Assembly: GCA_017998575.1 (NCBI GenBank)
Contig: JAGOCV010000053.1
Span: forward strand, 1-16,175
Source: Burkholderiaceae bacterium
GTDB lineage: Bacteria > Pseudomonadota > Gammaproteobacteria > Burkholderiales > Burkholderiaceae
Reading direction: 5' to 3'
DNA length: 16,175 bases
This document shows positions 864-12,324 of this stretch, in pieces (positions within the stretch are counted from its first letter, which is position 1; each line of letters opens with the position of its first letter). The position numbers and the translations under genes were made by a program. Below the pieces are notes generated by a model that saw only the letters and a program-made list of their open reading frames with translations, was not told where the DNA came from and searched no databases.

Positions 864-1457
864 TTACGCGCCGCGCGCCCTGCCAGCGCCTGGCGCTGCG
901 GGGCGGACGTCTGCCACGGATCGGGCAGAGCACTGGACCGTCAGAGGAACGTCGAGGTGAGACATGAGCGCGGCCATGGCCAAGACTCGGTCGTTCGGTT
1001 TGACGACGTTGGCCGGTATCGAGAGCGTCACCTTGTCGCGGACCAGGCTGACGTCCAGGTAGGGCATGCCGGTCGCGTTGAACAGCAGCGCGCCCCGCTC
1101 GCACGCGGCGTTGGCCAGCAGCCGCGCCTGCGGGGCATGGAGATGGGCCTCGATCCGCCGGATCATCTGACCCGTGGTGGGATTGAGGGCCAAACGCTGC
1201 AGGTAGGCCAGAGCCTCCTTGAGCAGGTCGAGTGTTTCCTGGTGCTTCTCTTCCGTGGTGAGTCGGAAGGTCTCGGTCGCGTCCTCTGCGGCCTGCAGCC
1301 AGTTCAAAGCCGACTGCGCATCAGTGGCCAGCGATTCGCCGAGGCCGTCTTCCCAGCGCTCGTCGCGCACGCGGCGCAGGTGCTCCAGGATCCTCGGCGG
1401 GAAGTCGGCGGAGCCACGGGGATCATGTGTGTTCATGGTGGTCACCTTGTCGTTCAT
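864..1457 (-). CDS. Hypothetical protein downstream of topB (197 aa)
   Basis: I do not recognise this family. The ATG at 1457 overlaps the topB stop (ATGA, 1454-1457), which suggests translational coupling. An internal ATG at 1436 has an AAGGTG ribosome-binding-like site 6 nt upstream and is a real alternative (190 aa). The protein looks soluble and mostly helical, with no signal peptide or membrane segment. Its middle part (about residues 45-100) is charged and helical. The last ~15 residues are Ala/Arg/Gly/Pro-rich and probably disordered. A copy of the TCCGNCGGA palindrome at 1154-1162 encodes the IRRI of its MIRRIEAH stretch. It is the last gene of the block before the 92-bp gap leading to the recombinase. 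It is clearly coding by its context, but its function is unknown. Confidence 0.6.
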   Translation of the reverse strand: MNDKVTTMNTHDPRGSADFPPRILEHLRRVRDERWEDGLGESLATDAQSALNWLQAAEDATETFRLTTEEKHQETLDLLKEALAYLQRLALNPTTGQMIRRIEAHLHAPQARLLANAACERGALLFNATGMPYLDVSLVRDKVTLSIPANVVKPNDRVLAMAALMSHLDVPLTVQCSARSVADVRPAAPGAGRARGA

Positions 1458-3664
1458 TGCGCCCACTGAAAAAGCTTGCAGCCGGGGAACTCGCTGCAGC
1501 CCCAGAACTGCTTGTCCGACTCCTTGAGGTTGCGCAGCTGCACCCTGCCCTTGCGGCACGAAGGGCACGGATCACCTGGCTTCAGCGGGCTGGCAGGCGC
1601 CGCGCGCGATCCGGCGGATGGACGCGGTGCCGGCGCGCCAGGACGGCCGCCGGCGTCCGGCAATGTCGTCTTGCACCCTGGGTAGGCAGAGCAGCCCCAG
1701 AACGCGCCTGTGGAGCCGCTACGCGGCCGCATGGGCTTGCCGCAGGCCGGACAGGCGTGGACGGGTCCCGTGGGCTCTGCGCGTGGCACCCGCGGCCGCG
1801 CCTGCGGGCGAATCTTCCCGATGAGATCCGCAAGCCACTGTCCCAGCGACCGCTCGAAGTCCTCAAGCTTCAGCGCGCCCGACTCGATCTGCATCAGCTG
1901 GTCCTCCCATAGGGCCGTGAGCACCGGATCCGCGAGGGCCGGTGCGTACTGCTCCATGGTGCCGATGAGGGCCGTACCCCTGTCGGTCGGCACGATGAAC
2001 TTCTTCTCGTTGGCGATGTACTCGCGCTTGAACAGTCCCTCGATGATCGAGCTGCGTGTTGCATCAGTCCCGATGCCGGCCTTCTCCTTCGACTGCATCA
2101 CCTTCTTGAGGCGTGGGTCGTCGATGATCTTGTCGATCGACTCCATCGCGGCCAGGAGCGTGCCTTCGGTGTAGCGCTTCGGCGGCTTCGTCTTCGTGGC
2201 TACCGTATCCGCCTTGCGATTGATGGCCTGGTCGCCCTGCGCTGCCGCCGGCATGGCGATGGGCGGGCCGTCGCCCTCGCCCTGATCCGCCGGATCGGGT
2301 TTGGACACGGCCGCGCGGGCGGCGTCCAGTTCTGCATAGGCCAGTTTCCAGCCCGGCACCGTCGTGACCTCACCCGTGGCCGTGAAGGCCTCGCCCTCGC
2401 AGGCCACGTCCATCACCGTGCGATTGAACTCGCGATCACCCAGGAACTGGGCGATGTAGCGGCGACGGATGAGGTCGTAGACCATGCGTTCCGTCGGCTT
2501 CATGTCGACCAGTTTCACGGTTGGATTGGCCGTGGGAATGATCGCGTGGTGGGCCGTGACCTTCTTGTCGTTGAAGGCGCGGCCAGGCTTGCCAGCTACA
2601 GCGCGCTCGATGAGCTTCGAGAACGCCGGATCGGTCGCGCGAAGCGCCTGCAGCACCTGTGGCACCTCTCCCGCCATGGACTCGGGCAGGTGCTCGCAGT
2701 CCGTGCGCGGATAGGTCGTGGCCTTGTGCGTCTCGTAGAGCGCCTGGCACGCATCGAGCACGGCCTGTGCCTTGAGTCCGTACCGAGCAGAGGCTTCGCG
2801 CTGCAGGGAGCCCAGGCTGTACAGCAGCGGGGCCAGCTCACGTTCGCGCGTCTTCTCGACGCGGCTGACGCGACCCGTGCGGCCGCGCACCTTCGTGGCC
2901 ACGCCGTCGACGTAGGATCGGTCGACGCAGTGGCCATCCTTGTCCAGGCGAGCAGCATCGGCCTTCCAGCGCATCGGAATCAAGGTGCCCTGCACCTCGA
3001 AGGAGGCCTGCAGCACGTAGTGCGCCTTCGGCTTGAAGTTCAGGATCTCGCGCTCGCGCCGCACGATCAGGGCGAGCACTGGCGTCTGCACGCGGCCGCA
3101 GTGCAGGACGCCGCCCTTGCCGCCGGTGCCGAACGCCGCGGTCAAGGCCATCGTCATGTTCATGCCGGCCAGCCAGTCGGCACGGGCACGGCCCATGCCG
3201 GAGAAATACAGTGGCTTCGTCTTCTGGTCAGGCAGCAGGCCAGCCAGGGCCTTGCGGATCGACGCACTGTCGAGCGCGCCGAGCCAGAGGCGGCGGATCG
3301 GTCCGCCGTATCCAGCGAGCTGCATCACCTCGCGTGCGATTACCTCGCCCTCGCGGTCTGCGTCAGTTGCAATTACCACCTCGCGGGCTTGCTTCAGCAA
3401 ACGGGCCACGACCTGGTACTGCTCCCGCGTCGACGGCTTGACGTCCATGTGCCACTGCGTCGGCACCACGGGCAGAAGGTTCAGATCCCACGACGTCAGC
3501 GCCGGCGCGTAGTGCTCAGGCTTGGCCTGCTCCAGCAGGTGGCCGATGCACCAGGTCACGGCCACGCCGTCGCCGGTCATACAGCCATTGCCGCGCTGCT
3601 TCGCGCCCACGTGCGGCGCGATGTCGCGGGCCTGAGAGGGCTTTTCGCAGATGAACAGTTTCAT
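1454..3664 (-). CDS. topB: DNA topoisomerase III (ICE-type TopB)
   Basis: This is a type IA topoisomerase that cuts and passes single DNA strands; in ICEs of this class it is thought to help decatenate or process the replicating or transferring element. The 736-aa protein starts MKLFICEKPSQA, the usual start of the TOPRIM domain, with the acidic metal-binding DADRE at residues 101-105. SGMGRARADWL (153-163) and CGRVQTP (189-195) follow. The active-site tyrosine is in TTYPRTD (Tyr318), and IGTDATR is present further on. The C-terminus has two zinc ribbons of CxxC...CxxxxxxC type (CPACG...GCSAYPGC and CPSCR...GCSEFPGC). Two TCCGNCGGA palindromes fall in its linkers (1620-1628 and 2286-2294). 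The start is fixed by MKLF and by an ATGA overlap with the upstream 69-aa ORF; the ribosome binding site is weak. The reading frame continues further upstream, but that extension lies over other genes and is not real coding. The identification is secure. Confidence 0.95.
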   Translation of the reverse strand: MKLFICEKPSQARDIAPHVGAKQRGNGCMTGDGVAVTWCIGHLLEQAKPEHYAPALTSWDLNLLPVVPTQWHMDVKPSTREQYQVVARLLKQAREVVIATDADREGEVIAREVMQLAGYGGPIRRLWLGALDSASIRKALAGLLPDQKTKPLYFSGMGRARADWLAGMNMTMALTAAFGTGGKGGVLHCGRVQTPVLALIVRREREILNFKPKAHYVLQASFEVQGTLIPMRWKADAARLDKDGHCVDRSYVDGVATKVRGRTGRVSRVEKTRERELAPLLYSLGSLQREASARYGLKAQAVLDACQALYETHKATTYPRTDCEHLPESMAGEVPQVLQALRATDPAFSKLIERAVAGKPGRAFNDKKVTAHHAIIPTANPTVKLVDMKPTERMVYDLIRRRYIAQFLGDREFNRTVMDVACEGEAFTATGEVTTVPGWKLAYAELDAARAAVSKPDPADQGEGDGPPIAMPAAAQGDQAINRKADTVATKTKPPKRYTEGTLLAAMESIDKIIDDPRLKKVMQSKEKAGIGTDATRSSIIEGLFKREYIANEKKFIVPTDRGTALIGTMEQYAPALADPVLTALWEDQLMQIESGALKLEDFERSLGQWLADLIGKIRPQARPRVPRAEPTGPVHACPACGKPMRPRSGSTGAFWGCSAYPGCKTTLPDAGGRPGAPAPRPSAGSRAAPASPLKPGDPCPSCRKGRVQLRNLKESDKQFWGCSEFPGCKLFQWAQ

Positions 3665-3870
3665 GGGGTGATCTGATGATTCGGGGCTGACGCTTGCGGC
3701 CCAACAACCAGGATCGACTTGCCGTCGACCCATAGCGACCCGTCCTCGCATTCCTCTACGACGACGAGGCCGTATGCGAGCGGAACCTCGATCCGGCGGA
3801 CGACCGGTGCTCGCACCTGGACGGGCACGACGTCGCCGCCACGCGGATCCGCCGGATCGACGTCGTTCAC
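3661..3870 (-). CDS. Small hypothetical protein between ssb and topB (69 aa)
   Basis: This short ORF starts at GTG 3870, overlapping the ssb stop (GTGA), and its TGA overlaps the topB start (ATGA). Those tight overlaps on both sides are the main reason to believe it is translated. The sequence begins VNDVDPADPRGG and continues with a beta-rich stretch, VPLAYGLVVVEECEDGSLWVDGKSILVVG, suggesting a compact beta fold. It has no membrane segment. Two copies of the TCCGNCGGA palindrome lie inside it (3792-3800 encoding RRI, and 3848-3856 encoding DPADP). I do not recognise the family. A role as an accessory to SSB or topoisomerase III is only a guess from position. Confidence 0.55.
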   Translation of the reverse strand: MNDVDPADPRGGDVVPVQVRAPVVRRIEVPLAYGLVVVEECEDGSLWVDGKSILVVGPQASAPNHQITP

Positions 3871-4283
3871 GCCGCGCTGCCTTCGGCCTGCTGCTGGCGA
3901 GCGCGCATTTCGATGCGCTCGACCCGGTTCGGCAGCAGGGCCACCTTCGCTGCGTCGCACCGCAGCTCGTAGTACGCGTTCTTGCCGGCGTTCTGGTCTT
4001 CGTCACTGGGGACGTAGACGTGCAGGTGGAGGTCTCCGACGACGAGCATGCGCATGCCTTTGCGATACAGCTGCATGACGGAATCGCCCAGTCGCTCGTT
4101 CCAGATGGTCACGGCCACGGGCTTGCTCCGCGACTCGTCCTGGTACGGGCCGTCTTCGCCATCGCGCCACACATCGCTCATCATCCGGAACTGGGTGATT
4201 CGCTTGGGGCCGTTGGCCGTCTCCACCTGCTTCTGGGTGGGACTGTCCAGCATGTTGCCGGTGACTTCTGCTTCGATTGCCAT
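3867..4283 (-). CDS. ssb: Single-stranded DNA-binding protein (ICE-encoded SSB)
   Basis: The 138-aa protein fits an OB-fold SSB. It starts MAIEAEVTGNMLDSP, then RITQFRMMSDVW and KPVAVTIWNERLGDSVMQLYRKGMRMLVVGDLHLHVYV, the usual strand-helix-strand pattern. It would coat single-stranded DNA during replication and transfer of the element. It sits two genes upstream of topB, as in PFGI-1/SPI-7-like elements. The ATG at 4283 has AGGAG 6 nt upstream. The C-terminus (RARQQQAEGSAA) lacks the acidic DDDIPF-like tail that recruits host repair and replication proteins in chromosomal SSBs, so it may not use that host interaction hub. The stop overlaps the next ORF (GTGA). In the 80-bp gap before it a weak 6-bp stem (4332-4337 / 4351-4356) has no U-run, so I do not call a terminator. 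Confidence 0.85.
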   Translation of the reverse strand: MAIEAEVTGNMLDSPTQKQVETANGPKRITQFRMMSDVWRDGEDGPYQDESRSKPVAVTIWNERLGDSVMQLYRKGMRMLVVGDLHLHVYVPSDEDQNAGKNAYYELRCDAAKVALLPNRVERIEMRARQQQAEGSAA

Positions 4284-4363
4284 TGTGATCTCCTGTTAGG
4301 TTGGCAAACTGACTCACACATCAGGTGCCACCAGGGCGCCGCCCCAGTCGGCCCTGAACTCCC

Positions 4364-4777
4364 TCAATCCGACGGATCGGATTCGCCGCCCAGGCCCAAG
4401 AAGCCCTCGCAGCGGTTCAAGCTGCCTTGCAGCAGCCGGTCGAGCACGTTGAGTTCGTCAACGCGCCGATTCATGGATACGTAGTGCCGGCGCACCGCGC
4501 CAGGCAGCAGGCCCAGGGCGGACTGCAGGTCGTCCCAGGTGGCATGGCGGTGCAGTCCTCCGGCCTTGATGCGCCACCGCAGCCGCCACGAACCCTGGTG
4601 CTCGCCGCCGCTCATGGGCAGGTGCCGCACCAGAGTGATCGGAGAGCCGGCCACGCGACTCGCCTCGAGCACCTGGGCCATCTCGACGTGCACCTTCATC
4701 TGCTGTTCGCGCAACCGCTTGCGCAGCGCCATGAACTGAGCTCGGCCCGTCAACGCGGCCAGGTCCTGGATCAGCAC
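4364..4777 (-). CDS. DUF3158-like ICE protein
   Basis: The 137-aa protein begins at GTG 4777, preceded by GAGGG at 6 nt. Helical, basic N-terminal residues (LRKRLREQQMKVHVEMAQVLEA) are followed by WRLRWRIKAGG, a HATWDDL stretch and LLPGAVRRHYVSMNRRVDELN. That pattern, and the position between a PFL_4669-family gene and ssb, fit the DUF3158 family of ICE proteins, some of which are annotated as integrase regulators. I base this on remembered family features and gene order, not on a search. The last residues, ESDPSD, are encoded by a copy of the TCCGNCGGA palindrome (4368-4376) that runs into the stop codon. The start overlaps the stop of the upstream 63-aa ORF, suggesting coupling. The biochemical role is unknown. 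Confidence 0.55.
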   Translation of the reverse strand: MLIQDLAALTGRAQFMALRKRLREQQMKVHVEMAQVLEASRVAGSPITLVRHLPMSGGEHQGSWRLRWRIKAGGLHRHATWDDLQSALGLLPGAVRRHYVSMNRRVDELNVLDRLLQGSLNRCEGFLGLGGESDPSD

Positions 4778-4962
4778 CGCACGCCCTCATCGCCGATCCG
4801 GCGGATCGAGGCTGTGGCACGACCGTCACGCCCCTTACCCTTAAAGGCTTTTGTTGTCCAAGAAGCAGTGACAAACGCCCTTCGCTTGTTGTCATCGCAT
4901 GCAATGACAAACGCCAATCCGGCGGATTGGAGGTGCTCAGAGGTGACTGCTGTCGTGGCCAT
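4771..4962 (-). CDS. Small hypothetical protein (63 aa)
   Basis: The evidence for translation is contextual. The ATG at 4962 has GGAG 5 nt upstream, the gap to the upstream gene is 13 bp, and the stop overlaps the GTG start of the DUF3158-like gene. The sequence, which includes LAFVIACDDNKRRAFVTASW and TKAFKGKGRDGRATASIRRIGDEG, matches no family I know. The DNA is packed with other signals: two TCCGNCGGA palindromes (4797-4805, 4918-4926), a 20-bp near-palindrome (4890-4909) and a direct repeat TGACAAACGCC (4869-4879, 4905-4915). The stretch could therefore instead be a regulatory or site-rich spacer that happens to be open. I rate a real peptide and a regulatory spacer as about equally likely. 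Confidence 0.45.
   Translation of the reverse strand: MATTAVTSEHLQSAGLAFVIACDDNKRRAFVTASWTTKAFKGKGRDGRATASIRRIGDEGVRC
4890..4909. promoter_or_regulatory. 20-bp near-palindrome, copy A
   Basis: This site and the one at 7667-7686 share the consensus TGTCATYGCMTGCARTGACA (17 of 20 identical), each nearly self-complementary. A half-site, GCAGTGACA, is at 4865-4873, and TGACAAACGCC is directly repeated at 4869-4879 and 4905-4915. A binding site for an element-encoded protein such as ParB or a regulator is possible but unproven. Confidence 0.5.
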
Positions 4963-4975
4963 GCGATCTCCAGCC

Positions 4976-5419
4976 CTACCGCTTTAGCCCAGGACCGCGC
5001 GGGTCTACGCTCTTGAGTTGGTCAGCCAAAACGGACCACATCAGTCGAAGCTTCTGAGGTGTGTTTTTCACGGTCCGCAGCACCTCGACGAGTCCGTCGC
5101 TATCAAGGGCCTCGACGGACCGTTGGGCAGATCGCACGGTGGGCACAAACTGCGAGCCGTACTCGCGCTGGAGCGTCTGACCCGACAGCGTGCGGGGGAT
5201 CTGGAGGCCTATCGCTCGGTGGTGGTCCATGAGTTCCCACAGAACGGTGGCTTCCACAACATGGCCCCCTCGGATGGCGAGCAGTCGAACGAAGAGCTTT
5301 GCGTCTTGCGGATTGGCTTCGCAGAACGCAGCCCAAGCCTTTTTTTCTTCGGACTCAACGTCGTTGGCGGCTTGATGCGGCATGGGCTGGACCTCTTGAG
5401 ACGCAGACTGCGGCATCAT
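4976..5419 (-). CDS. Hypothetical ICE protein (147 aa)
   Basis: I do not recognise this family. The ATG at 5419 shares one base with the stop of the upstream gene (TGATG), so translation is probably coupled. The first ~25 residues (MMPQSASQEVQPMPHQAANDVES) look disordered. The rest is soluble and helical, with LFVRLLAIRGGHVVEATVLWELMDHHRAIG, then TVRSAQRSVEALDSDGLVEVLRT. This helix-rich shape with an apparent recognition-helix-like segment would suit a small DNA-binding or replication accessory protein, but that is a guess. No signal peptide or transmembrane segment is visible. It lies between the PFL_4669-family gene and the 63-aa ORF, in the position where other elements carry small, poorly conserved genes. 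Confidence 0.65.
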   Translation of the reverse strand: MMPQSASQEVQPMPHQAANDVESEEKKAWAAFCEANPQDAKLFVRLLAIRGGHVVEATVLWELMDHHRAIGLQIPRTLSGQTLQREYGSQFVPTVRSAQRSVEALDSDGLVEVLRTVKNTPQKLRLMWSVLADQLKSVDPRGPGLKR

Positions 5420-6564
5420 CAGTCGACCAGGCCAGCCGTGTCCGCCGTGCCCGATCCGTCGGATTCGCTGGTTGCTGCAGCGTCCATCGCGCTGGCCGCT
5501 TGCTGCAGCAGCTCCCGCTCCTTCGCGCTCAGCCGTTCGTTGCGCAGCGAGTGACGCGGTGCCAGCTCGCCCGTGTACACGGACTGCGGCAGCGGGCCCA
5601 ACACCTGGCGAACTGCGGCAGCACGTTTGACGGCTGCCTCATCGGCCTGCGGCAGATAGTCCGCGCGGCTGAGAGCACGCAGGTTGTCGTTGAGGAGCAC
5701 GCGGCTGGCCCGCAGCACCATCTCGAAGAGGGAGCGGCACTGGTGCTTGATCTCGTGGAGCGTCTGCCGCACGTCGGCCTTGCTGATCAGATCCCGGCGC
5801 TCGGCCGACTTGATCACGCGCACGCAGTAGTCGAAGTTCACCATCATGTTGGAGATGGCGTAGCCATAGGGCGAGCGGTAGCCCAGGCTCACGGCCTGGG
5901 GATGCTGCGCGCCCAGCACGCTGTACTTGAGGCCGCGCGCGCGCATGTCGTCCAGCAGCTTGACGTGCTTGGCTTCGATCTGCCGCACCTTCTGCGTGAT
6001 TGCCCCAAGTCGCTGGTCGACGTCGACCAGCGTGGCATCGGCATACGGGTTGTCGCCCGAGGTCAACAGGAACAACTGCCGCAGCGCGGTGGCGGCTCGA
6101 CGTCCGCCGGGCACGCCGAAGCGCGACTCGCCTGGCGCCGGCGTGGCGCCCAGGTACAGACGCATCGCTTCGAGCGTGTGCAGCGTCATCGAGTCCTCTT
6201 CGTCGCGCTGCAGCGCGCCCATGAGCAGTACCTTGCGGGCGTGCTCGACCGGCACGTCAGCTTCTGCCGCTGCCCGAGCTTGATGCTCGGACTGCAGGCG
6301 GCGGAACTCGGTCAGGCGTTCGAGGTAGGCCTCGTAACGCGGGTACATCGGATCCGCCGGATCGGGTTCATCCAGCTGGATCAGATGTGCCACGGCCGCT
6401 GCTTCAGCCCCCAGGTCATAGCCGTCCGGGAAGACATGCTGCGGACTCGCTGCTTCAGCCGAATCCACGATCGTCGTTGCTGCTTCAGTCGTCTGACGTT
6501 CATCGGCCACCACGCCCTCCACTGGGGCAGACTTCTTGGCGGGGGATGCTTTCCGTGTTGCCAT
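5419..6564 (-). CDS. PFL_4669-family ICE protein (DUF1845/AcaB-like)
   Basis: The 381-aa protein fits the integrating-conjugative-element family PFL_4669 (TIGR03761), related to DUF1845, which has been linked to AcaB-type regulators. The matching features are SMTLHTLEAMRLYLG (125-139), LTSGDNPYADATLVDVDQRL (167-186) and YRSPYGYAISNMMVNFDYCVR (229-249), followed by a helical repeat ending around residue 290. The first ~60 residues and the last ~40 are Ala/Ser/Glu-rich and probably disordered. TCCGNCGGA palindromes encode EPDPADP (6353-6361) and part of the tail (5455-5463), so they sit outside the conserved core. AAGGAGAGG lies just upstream of the ATG at 6564. Its place between the initiator-like gene and the DUF3158-like gene is as expected for this class of element. 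Its molecular role is not established; a regulatory role is inferred from the AcaB relation. Confidence 0.78.
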   Translation of the reverse strand: MATRKASPAKKSAPVEGVVADERQTTEAATTIVDSAEAASPQHVFPDGYDLGAEAAAVAHLIQLDEPDPADPMYPRYEAYLERLTEFRRLQSEHQARAAAEADVPVEHARKVLLMGALQRDEEDSMTLHTLEAMRLYLGATPAPGESRFGVPGGRRAATALRQLFLLTSGDNPYADATLVDVDQRLGAITQKVRQIEAKHVKLLDDMRARGLKYSVLGAQHPQAVSLGYRSPYGYAISNMMVNFDYCVRVIKSAERRDLISKADVRQTLHEIKHQCRSLFEMVLRASRVLLNDNLRALSRADYLPQADEAAVKRAAAVRQVLGPLPQSVYTGELAPRHSLRNERLSAKERELLQQAASAMDAAATSESDGSGTADTAGLVD

Positions 6565-6584
6565 TTCGATTCCTCTCCTTGTGC

Positions 6585-8561
6585 TTATGGCTTGCGAATG
6601 ACGAGCGTCCGCCGGGCCGCGACGGCGACAACGAGGCCGCGCCGCGATCCGTCGGATTGCGCGTTGGGTTGAGTAGGGGTGGCGTCGGCACGCGGAGCGT
6701 TTGGCTCGGCACGCTCGATCGCCACCGCTGGCTTGCCGGCGCGCAGCGCGAACTCGTTGCGGAGCGCCTGAAGATTTCGGCGTTCCTCGGTGGTCGAGGC
6801 TGGCTTCGGCGATGGAGGCGTATGGTCAGTTCTCACACTTGCTGCGAAAACTGACCGATTGGGATCCGGCGGATCGCCGGACAGGGCGCGCTGAAGCCTG
6901 GCCTCGGCCGCGTGCTGGCCCTCACGCTGCTGGCGAACCTCGTGGGCCAGCTCCGGAACGAACCGCCCTTGCTCGGCCAACCTTGCAAGCTGTCCGAGGT
7001 AGGCGAGGGGGCTCTTCACCTGGCCGCGGCCCATTCGCCCGGCAAGCTCGTCGAGCAGCTGCTGATGCTGCTCGATGGGGAGAGCTTCGAGCAATCGCCG
7101 ACCGAGCTGCACGACCGGCTCTGCCAAGCTCTTCGGCCAAACCACCTGATCCGGCGGATTGATCGAAGGCACCACCACCACCGGAGCAACCGCGAGGTCT
7201 GCCGCGCCTGGCCGCGCGCTCGGTGTAGTAGTGGTTGTAGTCTTGTGTGTAGTCCCCTTTACCGCGCGCGCATGTAGAGGTGCGAAAAGTGACCGTTTGG
7301 AGTTCCGAAAACTAGCCGTATTGAGTGCGGAAATTGACCGTATGGGATGCGGAAACTGGCCATTTGCATGGTCACTTTTCGCAGTGTCCGGCGGATAGGC
7401 TGATTGCGGAGTGCCTGTCCGCCAATTTGGCGCAGTGCGTCCGGCGGACGCAGTTCGCCAATCTGGCGAACTGACCTCAGTTGGACAATTTGACGCAGTG
7501 GGTCCGCCGGACCCAGTTGGACAATTTGTCGTACTGCGTCCGCCGGACGCAGTTGGACGTTTTGTCGCACTCGGCTGGTTTCCACAATCTGTGGAAGTTG
7601 TCCCTGCCGGGGCAACTTCCCGGAATGTCACGGCGCTGATCCGAGCCTCCTTCGGCACCCGTGGTTTGTCATTGCCTGCAGTGACATTACCCGCGAGCTG
7701 AATCCCCTTGAGCAATTGCCCCAGCAATCCGTCGGATCGGCCGCGCTGCGCGATCGCAGCCTGCATCTTTTTGGACAGCGCGCCCAGGTCCACGCGATAG
7801 AAGGACCTGCGTCGCGGATAGGTCTGAATCGCTTCCTGCAGGATTTCAAGGCGGCATAGTTTTTGCTTCGCGTCGCGAATCTGTGACGCCCGCAAGCCGG
7901 TCTCGTCCTGCCACTGTGTTGCAGCCAGGTGAAACCAGTCGGCATCCCATCCCCCAGGTGACTGCGCACGCGCTGTGCGCTCCATCTGCGTCTTCACGAC
8001 GTTGCTCTGCAGTGCCACGGCCTTGGCCAGCAAGACGGCGACCGGGATGGCTTCCGTGACCTCTGCGAATACGCGGAAGAAAGCCAGGCTGCGGCCGAGC
8101 AGGGCCGCGATCTGAGCATGGGGGGCACGCAGGTCCAACAAGGACCATTGCACGGGCTCCTGCCGCAGCATTTGAGCGAGCTTGTGCCCCAGCACCCGCG
8201 GGTTGATTCGATAGCTGCAACGAGGCGGCATGCCCGTGCGCTGCTCTTCGATGAGGCCCAGGGCCAGGAGCTTCGTGCGTGCTGATTCCTGCTCGTGCCT
8301 GGAGAGGCCTGTCTCGTGGGTCCACTGCTCCCGGGTCTTGAAGATCCAGCCTTCCAGTCGCTCGATGTCGCTGCCACGGCGCGTCCAGTAGAGCAGCTGG
8401 GACGCGAAGAGCGCGGCCTTCACATCGCCCGTTATGCGCGCGATGTTGACGTTGTAGGCGATGGGGTACTCGCGCCCCAGAACCTGCTGGAACTGCGCGA
8501 GAAGCACCTCGCCAGGATGGACCTGCGTGCCTGGCTTTGATGTGGCGGGCGGAGTGTTCAT
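6585..8561 (-). CDS. Large winged-helix replication-initiator-like ICE protein (658 aa)
   Basis: The N-terminal half looks like two tandem winged-helix modules of the phage replication-protein type. Module 1 (about 30-125) has VKAALFASQLLYW, WIFKTREQWTHETGLSRHEQESARTKLLALGLIEEQ and a SYRIN wing strand. Module 2 (about 157-262) has AFFRVFAEVTEAIPVAVLLAKAV, TQWQDETGLRASQIRDAKQKL and FYRVDLGAL. Residues about 305-470 are low-complexity Thr/Ser/Pro/Asn/Gly with ~12-residue repeats, and this DNA carries the iteron and palindrome arrays. A helical module follows at 480-550, ending SPLAYLGQLARLAEQGRFVPE. It occupies the slot held by STY4528-like genes in related elements, but I see no clear STY4528 similarity. 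The ATG at 8561 follows the previous stop by 10 bp; no strong ribosome binding site is visible. A DNA-binding initiator or partition role is inferred. Confidence 0.68.
   Translation of the reverse strand: MNTPPATSKPGTQVHPGEVLLAQFQQVLGREYPIAYNVNIARITGDVKAALFASQLLYWTRRGSDIERLEGWIFKTREQWTHETGLSRHEQESARTKLLALGLIEEQRTGMPPRCSYRINPRVLGHKLAQMLRQEPVQWSLLDLRAPHAQIAALLGRSLAFFRVFAEVTEAIPVAVLLAKAVALQSNVVKTQMERTARAQSPGGWDADWFHLAATQWQDETGLRASQIRDAKQKLCRLEILQEAIQTYPRRRSFYRVDLGALSKKMQAAIAQRGRSDGLLGQLLKGIQLAGNVTAGNDKPRVPKEARISAVTFREVAPAGTTSTDCGNQPSATKRPTASGGRSTTNCPTGSGGPTASNCPTEVSSPDWRTASAGRTAPNWRTGTPQSAYPPDTAKSDHANGQFPHPIRSISALNTASFRNSKRSLFAPLHARAVKGTTHKTTTTTTPSARPGAADLAVAPVVVVPSINPPDQVVWPKSLAEPVVQLGRRLLEALPIEQHQQLLDELAGRMGRGQVKSPLAYLGQLARLAEQGRFVPELAHEVRQQREGQHAAEARLQRALSGDPPDPNRSVFAASVRTDHTPPSPKPASTTEERRNLQALRNEFALRAGKPAVAIERAEPNAPRADATPTQPNAQSDGSRRGLVVAVAARRTLVIRKP
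6824..6856. repeat. Inverted pair of iteron-like units
   Basis: GGTCAGTTCTCACA (6824-6837) and TGCGAAAACTGACC (6843-6856) form a 14-bp inverted repeat with two mismatches and a 5-nt spacer. The right arm is a copy of the unit repeated at 7281-7369, so this is a second, smaller site for whatever recognises that array. It lies in the C-terminal coding part of the initiator-like gene. Confidence 0.7.
7281..7383. repeat. Iteron-like array: four 22-bp units inside a 14-bp inverted repeat
   Basis: Four direct units start at 7281, 7304, 7326 and 7348 (spacing 23, 22, 22), with consensus near TGCGRAAAYTGRCCRTWT. The array ends with an inverted copy. TGCGAAAAGTGACC (7281-7294) and GGTCACTTTTCGCA (7370-7383) are perfect 14-bp inverted arms bounding the whole 103 bp. 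The stretch is visibly more AT-rich than its surroundings. A spacing of two helical turns is typical of initiator iterons. IS21-like transposon ends also carry repeats of similar sequence, so a transposon remnant is the alternative. Confidence 0.75.
7412..7575. repeat. 36-bp-period palindrome array
   Basis: CAGTTGGACAATTTG-type units start at 7478, 7514 and 7550, exactly 36 bp apart, with two diverged units before them (7412, 7451). Each period carries a perfect palindrome: GCCAATTTGGC (7421-7431), 8-bp arms at 7436-7452, 10-bp arms 7451-7460/7464-7473, 8-bp arms at 7499-7515, and 10-bp arms 7533-7542/7544-7553. On the minus strand the array encodes ~12-residue repeats (PTASGG, PTGSGG, WRTASAG) in the initiator-like protein. 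Confidence 0.75.
7580..7620. repeat. Two overlapping strong hairpins
   Basis: TTCCACA (7580-7586) and TGTGGAA (7590-7596) are perfect arms with a 3-nt loop. GGAAGTTGTCCC (7593-7604) and GGGGCAACTTCC (7609-7620) pair at 11 of 12 positions around TGCC. The two share bases 7593-7596, so they are mutually exclusive folds. GTTTCCACA (7578-7586) matches 7 of 9 positions of a DnaA box. They immediately follow the 36-bp array. Confidence 0.65.
7667..7686. promoter_or_regulatory. 20-bp near-palindrome, copy B
   Basis: This is the second copy of the near-palindrome at 4890-4909, differing at three positions. It lies inside the initiator-like gene, about 50 bp from the hairpins at 7580-7620, where it encodes the NVTAGND part of the protein. 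Confidence 0.5.
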
Positions 8562-8571
8562 CGCGCCAGGC

Positions 8572-8979
8572 TCAGTGCGCCCTGGCAGCGATGTCGCTGC
8601 ATGTGCTGGACGACGCGGCCGACTGGAGGATGCGTCGGGTCAGGCGCTCGAAGTCCACCTTGAAGTAGGTCACGCCGCCGGCGGTGCGGCTCTGCGTGAT
8701 CAGCTTCATCTCGCGCAGGGTCTTGATGGCCATGGCCTGCTCCGCCTTGGACAGCCCGCCTCGGGCCACCAACTGCTCGGCCGACAGCGCGACCCCGCCG
8801 TCGGTGAGCACGCTCTCGCGAGTCTCGTACTCCTGCAGGATGCAAGTCAGCAGCAGGCCGGCCAGCGCTGAACCTGTGAGCTCAGCGAACACGCGATGGA
8901 TGGTGATGGGGGGCGAGGCCACGAGCATGGCCAGGTCGCCATTGCGCTCCAGCTCGCCGAGCAGATCGATCTGACTCAT
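8572..8979 (-). CDS. Small winged-helix-like protein (135 aa)
   Basis: The protein resembles a single copy of the module in the next gene. ITIHRVFAELTGSALAGLLLTCILQEYE parallels AFFRVFAEVTEAIPVAVLLAKAV. A helix-turn-helix-like stretch, LSAEQLVARGGLSKAEQAMAIKTLREMKLI, ends in the wing strand TYFKVDFERLTRRIL, which parallels FYRVDLGALSKKM. It is probably a DNA-binding protein related to, and perhaps working with, the 658-aa initiator-like protein. The ATG at 8979 overlaps the stop of the 68-aa ORF (ATGA). The C-terminal ~20 residues are Ser/Ala-rich. No named family is recognised. I am confident in the ORF, moderately so in the fold. Confidence 0.65.
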   Translation of the reverse strand: MSQIDLLGELERNGDLAMLVASPPITIHRVFAELTGSALAGLLLTCILQEYETRESVLTDGGVALSAEQLVARGGLSKAEQAMAIKTLREMKLITQSRTAGGVTYFKVDFERLTRRILQSAASSSTCSDIAARAH

Positions 8980-9182
8980 GGCCTGGCCTCAGTGGCAACG
9001 AAGCGGGGCATGCACCCGTCGATCCGCTGGACCGCGCCCCGCTTCGCTAGGCTGTCCAGCATCTTCTGGATCTCGTCGATCTGCCAGGTGGGGTTCCACA
9101 GACGCATCAGCGCTGCCGCCGAAACCGGCTCGCCGAGCGTGACCATGGAGCGCAGCAGCATTGACTCGTCCAGCGTGTTCAT
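8976..9182 (-). CDS. Small hypothetical protein, possible helix-turn-helix (68 aa)
   Basis: The ORF starts at ATG 9182, overlapping the DUF2857 gene stop (ATGA), and its own stop overlaps the next start (ATGA). Coupling on both sides makes it very likely to be real. The sequence begins MNTLDESMLLRSMVTLGEPVSAAALMRLW, then a helix, QIDEIQKMLDSLAKRGAVQRI, and a short strand, MPRFVATEA. This layout (helix, helix, longer helix, wing-like hairpin) resembles a minimal winged-helix domain. A longer open frame continues upstream to about 9695 but lies entirely over the DUF2857 gene and is not used. I do not recognise a family. Confidence 0.62.
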   Translation of the reverse strand: MNTLDESMLLRSMVTLGEPVSAAALMRLWNPTWQIDEIQKMLDSLAKRGAVQRIDGCMPRFVATEARP

Positions 9183-9748
9183 GGCGCCTTGCCCTCGACG
9201 ATCAGAAACTGATAGAGGGTTGACAGCGCCAGGTCCGGGTAGACCTCGGCCAGCGTGACCCAGCGCTCCGCCTCGATCTCGTGCTCGGTTTGCAGCGACT
9301 TCCAGGTCTGCCAGATCGCCCTGCCCAACGCGTCGCCCAGCTCGATGCGCTTCGGCGACGGCGGCTTCGCGCCCAGCTCGGCGCGGTGCTGCGTGACCTC
9401 GTGCCGCGTGACCGCGAACAGCCGGTTCAGCAGGGGATAGTTCGCCTGCCGTCGGATGCAGTAGCGAAGCACTGCATTGGTCCATTCCTCTTCGTCGATC
9501 TGCCTGGCCAGAACGTGTAGCGATGAGGTGTCCACCCAGACGTCCAGGTGATCGAAGAGCACAGGCAACTCGGCCGACCGCGCGGCATTCTTGATGATGG
9601 CCTCCACCTCGGTCGGCAGGCTCAATTGCTCGAACTGCACGGACAGCTCGAGCGCGACCTGCCGCTTGATCGCGGGCGAGTTCAGGCGCGTCCATCCCTT
9701 CGCAGGGGCATCCCTTCGCGATGTGGACTCATGGGACTGCGAATCCAT
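9179..9748 (-). CDS. DUF2857 ICE protein
   Basis: The 189-aa protein fits DUF2857, a family regularly found just after parB in PFGI-1/SPI-7-type islands. Supporting features are LPVLFDHLDVWVDTSSLHVL, the helical DEEEWTNAVLRYCIRRQANYPLLNRLFAVTRHEVTQHRAELG (a likely helix-turn-helix), and a C-terminal half with AIWQTWKSL, ERWVTLAEVYPDLALSTLYQFL. It is probably a DNA-binding accessory factor; some members are described as transcriptional regulators, but the role is not well established. The ATG at 9748 has GGAGG 8 nt upstream. It follows parB after 15 bp and overlaps the next ORF (ATGA). The first ~25 residues are Ser/Lys-rich and probably disordered. The family call rests on remembered sequence pattern and on synteny. 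Confidence 0.72.
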   Translation of the reverse strand: MDSQSHESTSRRDAPAKGWTRLNSPAIKRQVALELSVQFEQLSLPTEVEAIIKNAARSAELPVLFDHLDVWVDTSSLHVLARQIDEEEWTNAVLRYCIRRQANYPLLNRLFAVTRHEVTQHRAELGAKPPSPKRIELGDALGRAIWQTWKSLQTEHEIEAERWVTLAEVYPDLALSTLYQFLIVEGKAP

Positions 9749-9763
9749 GGCTCACACCTCCAT

Positions 9764-11443
9764 TCACTTGGCGCCTTGTGCGGCGTTGAACGCACGCATG
9801 GCCTCGAGTAACCCGGAGAGGCCCATGCTGAGCGGGTGATGCGGATCGCACAGGACACGCAGGACGAACTGGGCGTCGATCAAAGTCTCGCCGCCCAAGC
9901 TCTCGGCAACGACCGTTGGCCACAGTTCCGGGTCCGATACGGCCGCGCGATAGCCGTCGGGTCCTGTGTCGGGCAGGATGGGGGCACCAGAGACGTCGAC
10001 GCGCTCCAGGAACGCATCGATGTCGTTCTCGAACTGCCCAGAGAGATTGGCGAGGAGCCACCAGCCTTGCACGGCCAGGTCTTCCGGAGCAGAGCCGAGC
10101 ACACCAGGAGCGGGCAGCTCCATGAAGAAGCCGTAGGGCAGGGCAGGTGCCGGGCGGATGTAGCTGTCGATCGCGACTACAGCGGCCACGCCGATGAGCA
10201 TGTGCATCAGCTGCTGCTGGTCGATGTCCTCGACGCCCATGCCGTCGAAGGCCGGTTGATGGCCGCTGGGGCCGTCGTCCTCGTCGTCGCTGGCACCGTC
10301 GCTGGGGTTGGCGGGCGCGCCCGTGAAAGTCTTTGGCACGAGGCCCGACGCCACGCGAAGACCGGTCGGCGATGACTCACGGAATGCAGCTGGCGTCAAC
10401 GGCGTTTGACTCGCCGCTGCAGGCGACTGATTGCCGTCAGCGCCGGCGTCGCTGTCGGGGAGGTCCGCCGGTGGCGTGTCGCCGGCGCCGCCGCCTCCGC
10501 CGGCGTCGGGAGGGCCATTGCCGAGCAGGTCGCTGAGTGCAGCGGTGCGATCGAGCTTGAGCGCTGCAAGCATCAGCTCCAGTTGGTCTGAGCTGTAGCC
10601 AAACTCCGTGGCTGCCATCGCGATGAGATGCGAATGCAGGAGTGAAGCGGTGCGGCATTGTTCACTCGCCATGCTCAGCCATTCAGCGTACGCGGGAGCG
10701 AACGTCGCTTCCTTTCGACCCTCGTGCTTGAGCCAGAGGTCGAGCAGCAGGCCGTGCTGCGGCCGCAGCACGTTGCGCACGTCGTCGCGGGTCAAGTCGA
10801 AGCGGAAGGCCTCGGGCATCTGCCCGTAGGTTTTGACGGCGAACTGGTACTGCAGCATCGTGGTGTCAGTGATGCTCGCCAGTCCTCGCTTCTTCATGGC
10901 ATCGACTGCTTCACGCGAACCCAGGTCCTGTCCCAGCTCCTTCGCCAACTCGGCCTTCAGGTCCATCACGCCGCGCGCGGTGTCCCAGAAGCACATGTCG
11001 GCGCGCTGGATGTTCTCGATGAGGTGAGCGGCCAGCAAGGCCGCGTCGCTCACGTACGTCACTTCCTGGAAGTCGGCGTACTCGAAGCGCTTGGCGATCT
11101 CAGGATCTTCATGCTTGGCCAGCTCCTGCAGGGCGCTTAGCCGCGTGCCGCCGCCTTTGGCAGTCACCCAGGCATCCTTGCCCGGGTGACGGCAGACGGC
11201 GATCATGGATTCGAGGCCCCCGTTCTTGATCGAGTCGCGGATCTCTTCGAACTTCTCGTTGGACTTGCTACGGGGGTTCTGCGCGAACTGCTGGACATCG
11301 ACGACGCGCAGTCGCCGCAGGGACGTGTACTTCTCATCTCGTGAGGCCAGTTCCTCAGGCGAGATCGCCTCGAGCGGGTTCGTCTTGTTTGTGAGCTGAT
11401 GGATAACCGCGGTGGGGATTTTCCGAGCGGACGACTTGCTCAT
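9764..11443 (-). CDS. parB: ParB-family protein, PFGI-1 ICE class
   Basis: ParB proteins bind parS sites, spread on DNA and work with ParA to segregate DNA. This 559-aa member has the N-terminal ParB/nuclease fold: NPRSK (56-60), a helix with EEIRDSIKNGGLESMIAV, GGGTRLSAL (97-105) and HLIENIQRADM (140-150). A helix-turn-helix region follows to about residue 220. The region 310-410 is a long Gly/Pro/Ala/Asp linker (for example DAGGGGGAG and DDEDDG). The C-terminal ~150 residues form a separate module (for example LMHMLIGVAAVVAIDSY and DLAVQGWWLLANLSGQF) that I do not recognise and that makes it longer than typical chromosomal ParB (~290 aa). This fits the ICE_PFGI_1 ParB class. The ATG overlaps the parA stop (ATGA), with GGAG 8 nt upstream. 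No parS is identified with certainty. Confidence 0.88.
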   Translation of the reverse strand: MSKSSARKIPTAVIHQLTNKTNPLEAISPEELASRDEKYTSLRRLRVVDVQQFAQNPRSKSNEKFEEIRDSIKNGGLESMIAVCRHPGKDAWVTAKGGGTRLSALQELAKHEDPEIAKRFEYADFQEVTYVSDAALLAAHLIENIQRADMCFWDTARGVMDLKAELAKELGQDLGSREAVDAMKKRGLASITDTTMLQYQFAVKTYGQMPEAFRFDLTRDDVRNVLRPQHGLLLDLWLKHEGRKEATFAPAYAEWLSMASEQCRTASLLHSHLIAMAATEFGYSSDQLELMLAALKLDRTAALSDLLGNGPPDAGGGGGAGDTPPADLPDSDAGADGNQSPAAASQTPLTPAAFRESSPTGLRVASGLVPKTFTGAPANPSDGASDDEDDGPSGHQPAFDGMGVEDIDQQQLMHMLIGVAAVVAIDSYIRPAPALPYGFFMELPAPGVLGSAPEDLAVQGWWLLANLSGQFENDIDAFLERVDVSGAPILPDTGPDGYRAAVSDPELWPTVVAESLGGETLIDAQFVLRVLCDPHHPLSMGLSGLLEAMRAFNAAQGAK

Positions 11444-12324
11444 GACGAGGTCTCCGATGCCTCGACGTGGTCAGCGGTGCGGCCTGGCGGCTCGTCTTTG
11501 CTCCACATGCCCTTGAGGTGAGGGGCAAGCTCGAACACGAGTTCATGCATGACCTCGTAGCCGCTCTTTTGCACGCGATCCACGCGAGGTTCATCGAATC
11601 GATGAACGGGCTGCCGCTCCAGCCGCGCATCCGGGTACGCCTTCGCCGAGGGAATGACGGTGTCCAGAAGGCGGATGTAGGGGTGGGAGCGGAACTCCTT
11701 GCGCACCTCCTCCATGAGCAGCCGCGCAGCACGCGTCCGGTCGAGCTGGTTGATGACCACGGCCAGCGGCGCGGCGCGCAGCTCGGCCGAGAAGTCCGAC
11801 ATCGCGTTGAGCGAGGACAGCATGTCCAGCGTGCCGGTGTGGAACTCCGCGACCTCCATCATCCGAGGGCACAGAGGGGTCACCAGCAGATCCGCGGCCA
11901 TGGCCGCAGAGCGCTGCAGCTCGCCCTTTGCGCCTTGGGTATCGATGACCACGAAGTCGTAGGTGTCCCGAATGATGGGCTGCCGGACCGCCCGCTTGAG
12001 CATGATCAGCCGGTCCTCTCGCTCCTTGAGCCAGGACTGAGTCGCATCCGAGATGTTCGACAGCACCACGTCGAGGCCATCGATGGTGGTGGGCGTGATG
12101 TCGCCCGCCTGGATGATCCCGCCGCGCGCGATGACCTGCGCGAGGCCGGCGGTGGGTGTGCTTGCGAGGGTGAAGTACTTGCTGAGCGACGGCTGCATGT
12201 CGGCGTCGATCGCCAGGACACGTTGCCCGAGGTCCGCGAGAAGACCGCTCAGATTGGCCGCGAGTGTGGTTTTACCGACGCCGCCTTTGGTTGCGACGAC
12301 CGCAACCACCGTTGTGTTTGGCAT
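11440..12324 (-). CDS. parA: ParA/Soj-family partition ATPase
   Basis: The 294-aa ATPase has a deviant Walker A motif, KGGVGKTT (13-20), with the signature Lys13. VLAIDADMQPSLSKYF (37-51) and a Walker B-like region, DFVVIDTQG (123-131), follow. It would form ATP-dependent gradients on DNA that position ParB-bound copies of the element, and in ICEs it supports stable maintenance after excision. GGGAG lies about 7 nt upstream of the ATG at 12324. The stop overlaps the parB start. It is the first gene of the block and faces away from purE, typical of an ICE whose parA lies nearest one attachment end. Many elements of this class carry a dnaB helicase between parA and parB; here parB follows directly. 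Identification is secure. Confidence 0.93.
   Translation of the reverse strand: MPNTTVVAVVATKGGVGKTTLAANLSGLLADLGQRVLAIDADMQPSLSKYFTLASTPTAGLAQVIARGGIIQAGDITPTTIDGLDVVLSNISDATQSWLKEREDRLIMLKRAVRQPIIRDTYDFVVIDTQGAKGELQRSAAMAADLLVTPLCPRMMEVAEFHTGTLDMLSSLNAMSDFSAELRAAPLAVVINQLDRTRAARLLMEEVRKEFRSHPYIRLLDTVIPSAKAYPDARLERQPVHRFDEPRVDRVQKSGYEVMHELVFELAPHLKGMWSKDEPPGRTADHVEASETSS

Follow-up and report, generated by a model that had tools for sequence, protein, structure and literature searches.

The window, by which we mean the whole 16,175-nt stretch of DNA analysed here, carries an ICE-type replication module on its minus strand. It comprises ParA (11440–12324), ParB (9764–11443; TIGR03764 at 100.3 bits, below its cut-off of 143.75), a DUF2857 gene (9179–9748), a small, weakly O-like winged-helix gene (8572–8979; phrog_9773, E 3.2e-7), a gene for an initiator-like protein of 658 aa (6585–8561), the adjoining AcaB/PFL_4669 gene (5419–6564; PF08900, and TIGR03761 at 118.1 bits against a cut-off of 110.7), an SSB-like ORF (3867–4283) named by its position, its reading as an ORF and the gene order in relatives, and TopB (1454–4006). 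The PFGI-1-type order of ParA, ParB, DUF2857, initiator, PFL_4669, SSB and TopB is found in the window, and this gene order is common to ICE relatives; among 119 loci with any match, many of them short, AcaB was seen in 79, ParB in 65, ParA in 58 and SSB in 34. No conjugation genes were found within the 16,175 nt, and the ICE label thus rests on the PFL_4669 model and on the gene order of the relatives. The ORFs from about 12,580 onward, which we take to be purE- and purK-like, look chromosomal.

The 658-aa protein matches the PHROGs profile phrog_9773 in two stretches (E 1.9e-34); its family name, 'replication initiation O-like', is that of PHROGs and is annotation only. In the structure model, two winged helices (residues ∼16–131 and 141–276, with 10-residue pLDDT means mostly >80) are followed by a linker, with nearly all of residues 290–469 at pLDDT <50, and by C-terminal helices at residues 481–560. 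The linker is predicted to be disordered, and the model agrees with the earlier note, made from the sequence alone, which had placed the repeats described below in the linker of a tandem winged-helix protein. The C-terminal part has a weak match to the STY4528 family (NCBIfam NF040582), at 23.9 bits far below the curated cut-off of 130, and the protein does not count as a member of that family. A sequence search of solved structures returned a single chance-level match (E 0.17), and a search of Rfam with 6400–8700 returned nothing at the gathering score. Searches of genome and viral contigs with the window protein alone returned no relatives, whereas an alignment used as the query recovered them. 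This alignment (A1) was built from 44 of 91 proteins, and 80 of 137 relatives were kept from the genome scan.

Inside the linker of the gene lie four iteron-like repeats (7281–7361, minus strand), with cores at 7348–7361, 7326–7339, 7304–7317 and 7281–7294. Four direct repeats of 22 bp had been claimed for this region; the four copies are there, albeit spaced by 22, 22 and 23 bp and imperfect, with pairwise identities of 13–16 of 22. The core pattern in its strict form, which misses the third copy, matches six times in the window against 0.56 expected, and none of 200 shuffles reaches six. The lag-22/23 score of the window linker is 14.8, compared to a maximum of 11.6 among 1000 synonymous codon shuffles. 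The codon phase changes from one core to the next (0, 1, 2 and 1), so that the protein-conserved stretch (consensus DGxFSH ... LHARA ... TTTTTT) is at least partly a DNA array read in rotating frames. An inverted copy of the core at 7370–7383 (plus strand) pairs with 7281–7294 as the perfect 14-bp inverted repeat previously described as bounding the repeats, and an outlying pair (6824–6856), absent from the earlier note, consists of a perfect core at 6843–6856 (minus strand) and an imperfect inverted copy at 6824–6837 (plus strand). The stretch is also AT-richer than its surroundings, as had been noted; its G+C content of 0.51 at 7260–7379 is the lowest of any 120-bp step in 6000–8999. At 7300, GC skew in a 3-kb profile shows no more than a local rise, and no decisive switch.

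Two further elements lie beside the iterons on the minus strand. The CTACATGCGCGCGCGG element (7262–7277) codes LHARA and falls within the best-conserved synonymous scan window (see below), and a GACTACA/ACN tract (7222–7255), which codes TTHKTTTTTT, is from its sequence a candidate opening region. Similar elements are seen in relatives, with a CTACATGCGC(A/G)CG-like element following the iterons in L001 and L004, and tracts resembling GACTACA/ACN in L001, L003 and L004.

Upstream of the iterons is a 36-bp repeat array with palindromes (7415–7585, minus strand), which is in frame with a period of 12 codons; 36-bp periods also occur in L002, L005, L006 and L007. The palindromes and strong hairpins attributed to this region are borne out. 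Seven perfect palindromes with arms of 6–10 were found in 7140–7640, all of them inside 7420–7596, the densest palindrome stretch of the window, and single-strand DNA folding of 7400–7610 gives z = -7.4, with 0 of 200 shuffles as good. One of the palindromes, TTCCACAATCTGTGGAA at 7580–7596, contains the 7/9 DnaA-box match to which the earlier note had drawn attention, but this match is no better than chance, as the window has 8 boxes with up to two mismatches where 12.9 are expected. Priming, control and partition are possible roles of the palindrome block.

The palindrome TCCGNCGGA is dispersed through the left part of the window, mostly within GATCCGNCGGATC. Its 18 copies all lie from 1154 to 7736, with the window to the right free of it, and its S form accounts for 14 copies against 0.42 expected. 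Four copies, at 7387–7547, lie in or beside the palindrome block. In the 60 relatives' loci examined it is present at most once per locus. It is similar to KorB-type operators, and is a candidate ParB site of the element.

For comparisons across relatives, 142 ORF matches were reduced to 97 by removal of near-duplicates, and then to 72 by dropping 22 with linkers of <120 nt and three without a usable winged-helix match; one locus (L102) contributes two of the 72 genes, and the linker bounds are approximate. The best linker repeat lag in the range 14–32 bp is 23 in 45 genes and 22 in eight, or 53 of the 72, where codon shuffles yield a lag of 22 or 23 in 9.6% of cases, corresponding to about seven genes. 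When lags 22 and 23 were scored against synonymous shuffles, 54 of the 72 relatives beat all 60. Neither 22 nor 23 is divisible by three, so it is the DNA itself that is selected. The relatives retain the position and spacing of the repeats, with differing sequences.

The earlier note had named homologues that lack the repeats but still function as evidence against an origin; 18 of the 72 genes fail the 22/23-bp test. These are L002, L007, L010, L030, L041, L045, L052, L106, the second ORF of L102, and nine genes of Paraburkholderia, Burkholderia and Trinickia, which are all those of the three genera among the 72. However, L010 has clear 23–24-bp repeats in a whole-gene scan, and both L002 and L007 have 36-bp arrays, so that some of the failures reflect approximate linker bounds or other periods.

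Conservation at synonymous sites was compared in six gene sets, with each gene pair measured against its own average; a further set of six near-identical genes (set A) was left out of this pair-normalised analysis. The z values assume independent codon pairs and are inflated, and it is their location, not their size, that is evidence. In five of the six sets the strongest synonymous conservation falls in the linker, where amino-acid identity is low, in agreement with the proposal that selection preserves the repeats at the DNA level as the linker protein drifts. The linker peaks are z 8.6 in the STY4528 set (seven genes; 0.91 vs 0.61), 11.6 in set B (10 genes), 5.4 in set G2 (seven genes) and 4.7 in set D (five genes). 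The window's own set, for which few close relatives were available as DNA (five genes), peaks in the linker at z 6.2 (0.81 vs 0.39), with neighbouring scan windows at 3.3–4.6; the conserved stretch, at z 3.3–6.2, runs from 7254 to 7358 and covers the iterons and the CTACATGCGCGCGCGG element. Outside the linker, peaks reach 4.5–4.6 in the window's set (ORF codons 253–273), 3.4–3.7 in set D and 3.4–3.6 in set G2. The exception is the Paraburkholderia set (nine genes), in which the linker reaches z 8.9 and the top value of 10.8 lies at ORF codons 15–28, at or before the gene start.

Among the loci of Paraburkholderia, Burkholderia and Trinickia (L008–L018 and L031), those tested fail the test for 22/23-bp repeats, yet in the nine that were aligned together the linker is strongly conserved at synonymous sites; perhaps these linkers hold another kind of cis element.

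Several relatives carry further signs of an origin in the same part of the gene. Across the 72 genes, linker sequence totalling 27,144 nt contains five TTWTNCACA boxes, and the remaining 85,605 nt of the same genes contain none. In the canonical STY4528 family, 11 of the 12 loci over the cut-off were used (L121–L131; L132, which is fragmentary and contains a stop, was excluded), and these include close relatives such as L124 and L125 and are not independent, with seven of them entering the synonymous test. All 11 have one TTWTNCACA-type DnaA box each in the linker, together with spaced TTCGGA/TCCGAA palindromes and, beyond these, a GTACNGTAC-rich stretch; for L128 the frame taken in this analysis was wrong, although the box and palindromes are present in its DNA regardless. 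In each of the 11 linkers the strongest repeat lag is 44 bp, and in 10 of them, all except L130, it exceeds the 95% shuffle value. The exact sequence TTATCCACA is present in the linkers of the five STY4528-family genes inspected for it.

Domain arrangements in the relatives connect the family to known replication proteins. In a Marinobacter plasmid protein (L134:2474–3460), the N-terminus corresponds to the winged helix of the window protein (38% over 92 residues) and the C-terminus to the C-terminal domain of lambda O (40% over 150), and 23/45-bp repeats lie between the two. In phage TRS1 an O-like gene with a 22-bp array adjoins a DnaB-like helicase gene. A DnaA_N domain is present in L002, and a DnaB_2 domain in L076.

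The lambdoid origin lies in the middle of O (PMC7466680). The lambda iterons, with annotated spacings of 20, 24 and 23 bp in mid-gene, are like those of the window, spaced 22, 22 and 23 in the linker; with lambda O as a positive control, lags of 20 and 44 exceeded the 95% shuffle value and a lag of 23 fell just short of it, which agrees with the annotated iterons. The window repeats sit between the putative DNA-binding and partner-binding parts and adjoin a candidate opening tract, as at lambda ori in the available part of its description (PMC7466680). The window differs from lambda in the pair of winged helices of its protein, in its 36-bp palindrome array and in its ICE-type module, which takes the place of a phage. 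Lambda O is tied to the window protein only through the Marinobacter chimera, as direct comparison of the two gave no significant similarity (best E 0.23). The lambda-like arrangement suggested in the earlier note draws support from the O-like profile and the chimera, albeit not from direct similarity. A second parallel is pSK41, whose origin is described, in the available part of the account, as lying centrally in rep, with four Rep boxes, binding by a winged helix and a dispensable linker (PMC5703833). No sequence relation to RepA_N proteins of the pSK41 type was apparent, and the window protein differs in having two winged helices and in belonging with the O-like families of PHROGs.

Among ICEs, a putative oriV of PFGI-1 has been placed directly upstream of PFL_4669, with four repeats of a palindrome containing TTCGGAATCCGAA, and the element is said to encode no Rep protein, according to the available portion of that account (PMC2647930). 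This oriV shares the neighbourhood of the window initiator, and we find TTCGGAATCCGAA in the linkers of the STY4528 family; in contrast to the reading proposed here, the same portion of the text does not describe the origin as lying within a gene for an initiator (PMC2647930). An iteron-like putative oriV in ICEHin1056 has been likened to those of pKLC102, SPI-7 and PAPI (PMC2258188, in part), and elements of the pKLC102-ICEclc group can replicate (PMC4489591, in part). No ICE origin embedded in its own initiator gene was found in titles and abstracts of the open-access papers searched, a scope outside which most subscription papers lie.

We conclude that the block is probably an iteron-type origin embedded in the gene that encodes its own initiator, within an ICE-type ParA-ParB-DUF2857-initiator-AcaB-SSB-TopB module. 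The best reading, by analogy, is that this putative origin would work like lambda ori with O and like pSK41 rep. The winged-helix half of the protein would bind the 22/23-bp iterons, and the bound complex would open the neighbouring GACTACA/ACN tract, as at lambda ori. The C-terminal domain would recruit host replication proteins, in keeping with the DnaA_N, DnaB_2 or lambda O C-terminal domains found at this place in some relatives. The disordered linker would then be largely the protein reading of a DNA element, and would tolerate drift. The interpretation given in the earlier note, an origin in its own initiator gene, is largely supported by these sequence comparisons.

Conservation at the DNA level does not by itself reveal function, and the repeats could instead be a cis site for the element's own proteins, acting in gene control, partition through ParB or copy control rather than at the start of replication. 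The presence in the palindrome block of TCCGNCGGA, possibly a site of ParB/KorB type, fits such a role. We nevertheless regard it as unlikely, because the O-like initiator family, the DnaA boxes in the linkers of relatives and a layout identical to that of the annotated iterons of lambda favour an origin over another binding site. It is less likely still that the ICE replicates after excision from a relaxase acting at oriT and that the embedded origin is a relic or of minor importance. The rise in copy number of ICEclc does depend on TraI and oriT1, and the available part of that report leaves alternative replication mechanisms open (PMC6561031). The relaxase route and an embedded origin are compatible with each other, and selection on the linker DNA across diverse relatives is unlike what a relic would show.

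Two other explanations concern how the repeats arose. They might simply follow from the repetitive, low-complexity sequence of the protein linker, with any selection acting on the protein, and the 36-bp array, being in frame, could by its repetition alone be explained at the protein level. The 22/23-bp copies, however, shift frame through phases 0, 1, 2 and 1 and exceed shuffles that preserve the protein, and conservation at synonymous sites coincides with low amino-acid identity, in a linker that is predicted to be disordered. For the iterons, though not for the 36-bp array, we therefore reject protein-level repetition as the cause, and give it very little credence. The block might also be what is left of an IS21-like or miniature mobile element that had inserted into the gene. 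IS21-type ends are inverted repeats reading TG...CA with inner repeats, and the inverted repeats here likewise start with TG and end with CA and have inner repeats. A match to such ends with target duplications had been named in the earlier note as grounds against an origin. On direct reading, no direct repeat that could be a target duplication is shared by the sequences just outside 7281 and 7383. The block has no match in phages and only 24-bp, chance-level matches in plasmids (E 4), and among the relatives it is position and spacing that persist, whereas the sequences differ; we reject this explanation as well, as the most improbable of those considered.

An iteron-type origin within the initiator gene would bear on a matter that is unsettled, namely the replication of excised ICEs of the PFGI-1/pKLC102 type, for which there are a repeat-based oriV proposal, an absence of any Rep seen and the relaxase/oriT route of ICEclc. 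The principle of an origin within its initiator is already known from lambda and pSK41. What appears to be new, within the literature searched, is how widely it extends among ICEs, phages and plasmids, and that an initiator and an origin are proposed for STY4528-type ICEs. We lean, by a small measure, towards a general form of this reading, in which one O-like winged-helix superfamily drives plasmid-style replication of PFGI-1/STY4528-type ICEs, with the origin (22/23-bp iterons and, in canonical members, a DnaA box) throughout in linker codons, and in which the 'missing Rep' would be the STY4528-type gene. The analysis singles out a probable initiator together with a defined target some 150–450 bp long, and ties ICEs of the PFGI-1/pKLC102 type to phage replication modules. 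It also offers a signature for origins hidden in genes of mobile elements, in the form of frame-rotating 22/23-bp repeats in a disordered linker.

We note that the small gene just upstream of the initiator, with its single winged helix and O-like kin, is a possible regulator or accessory initiator.
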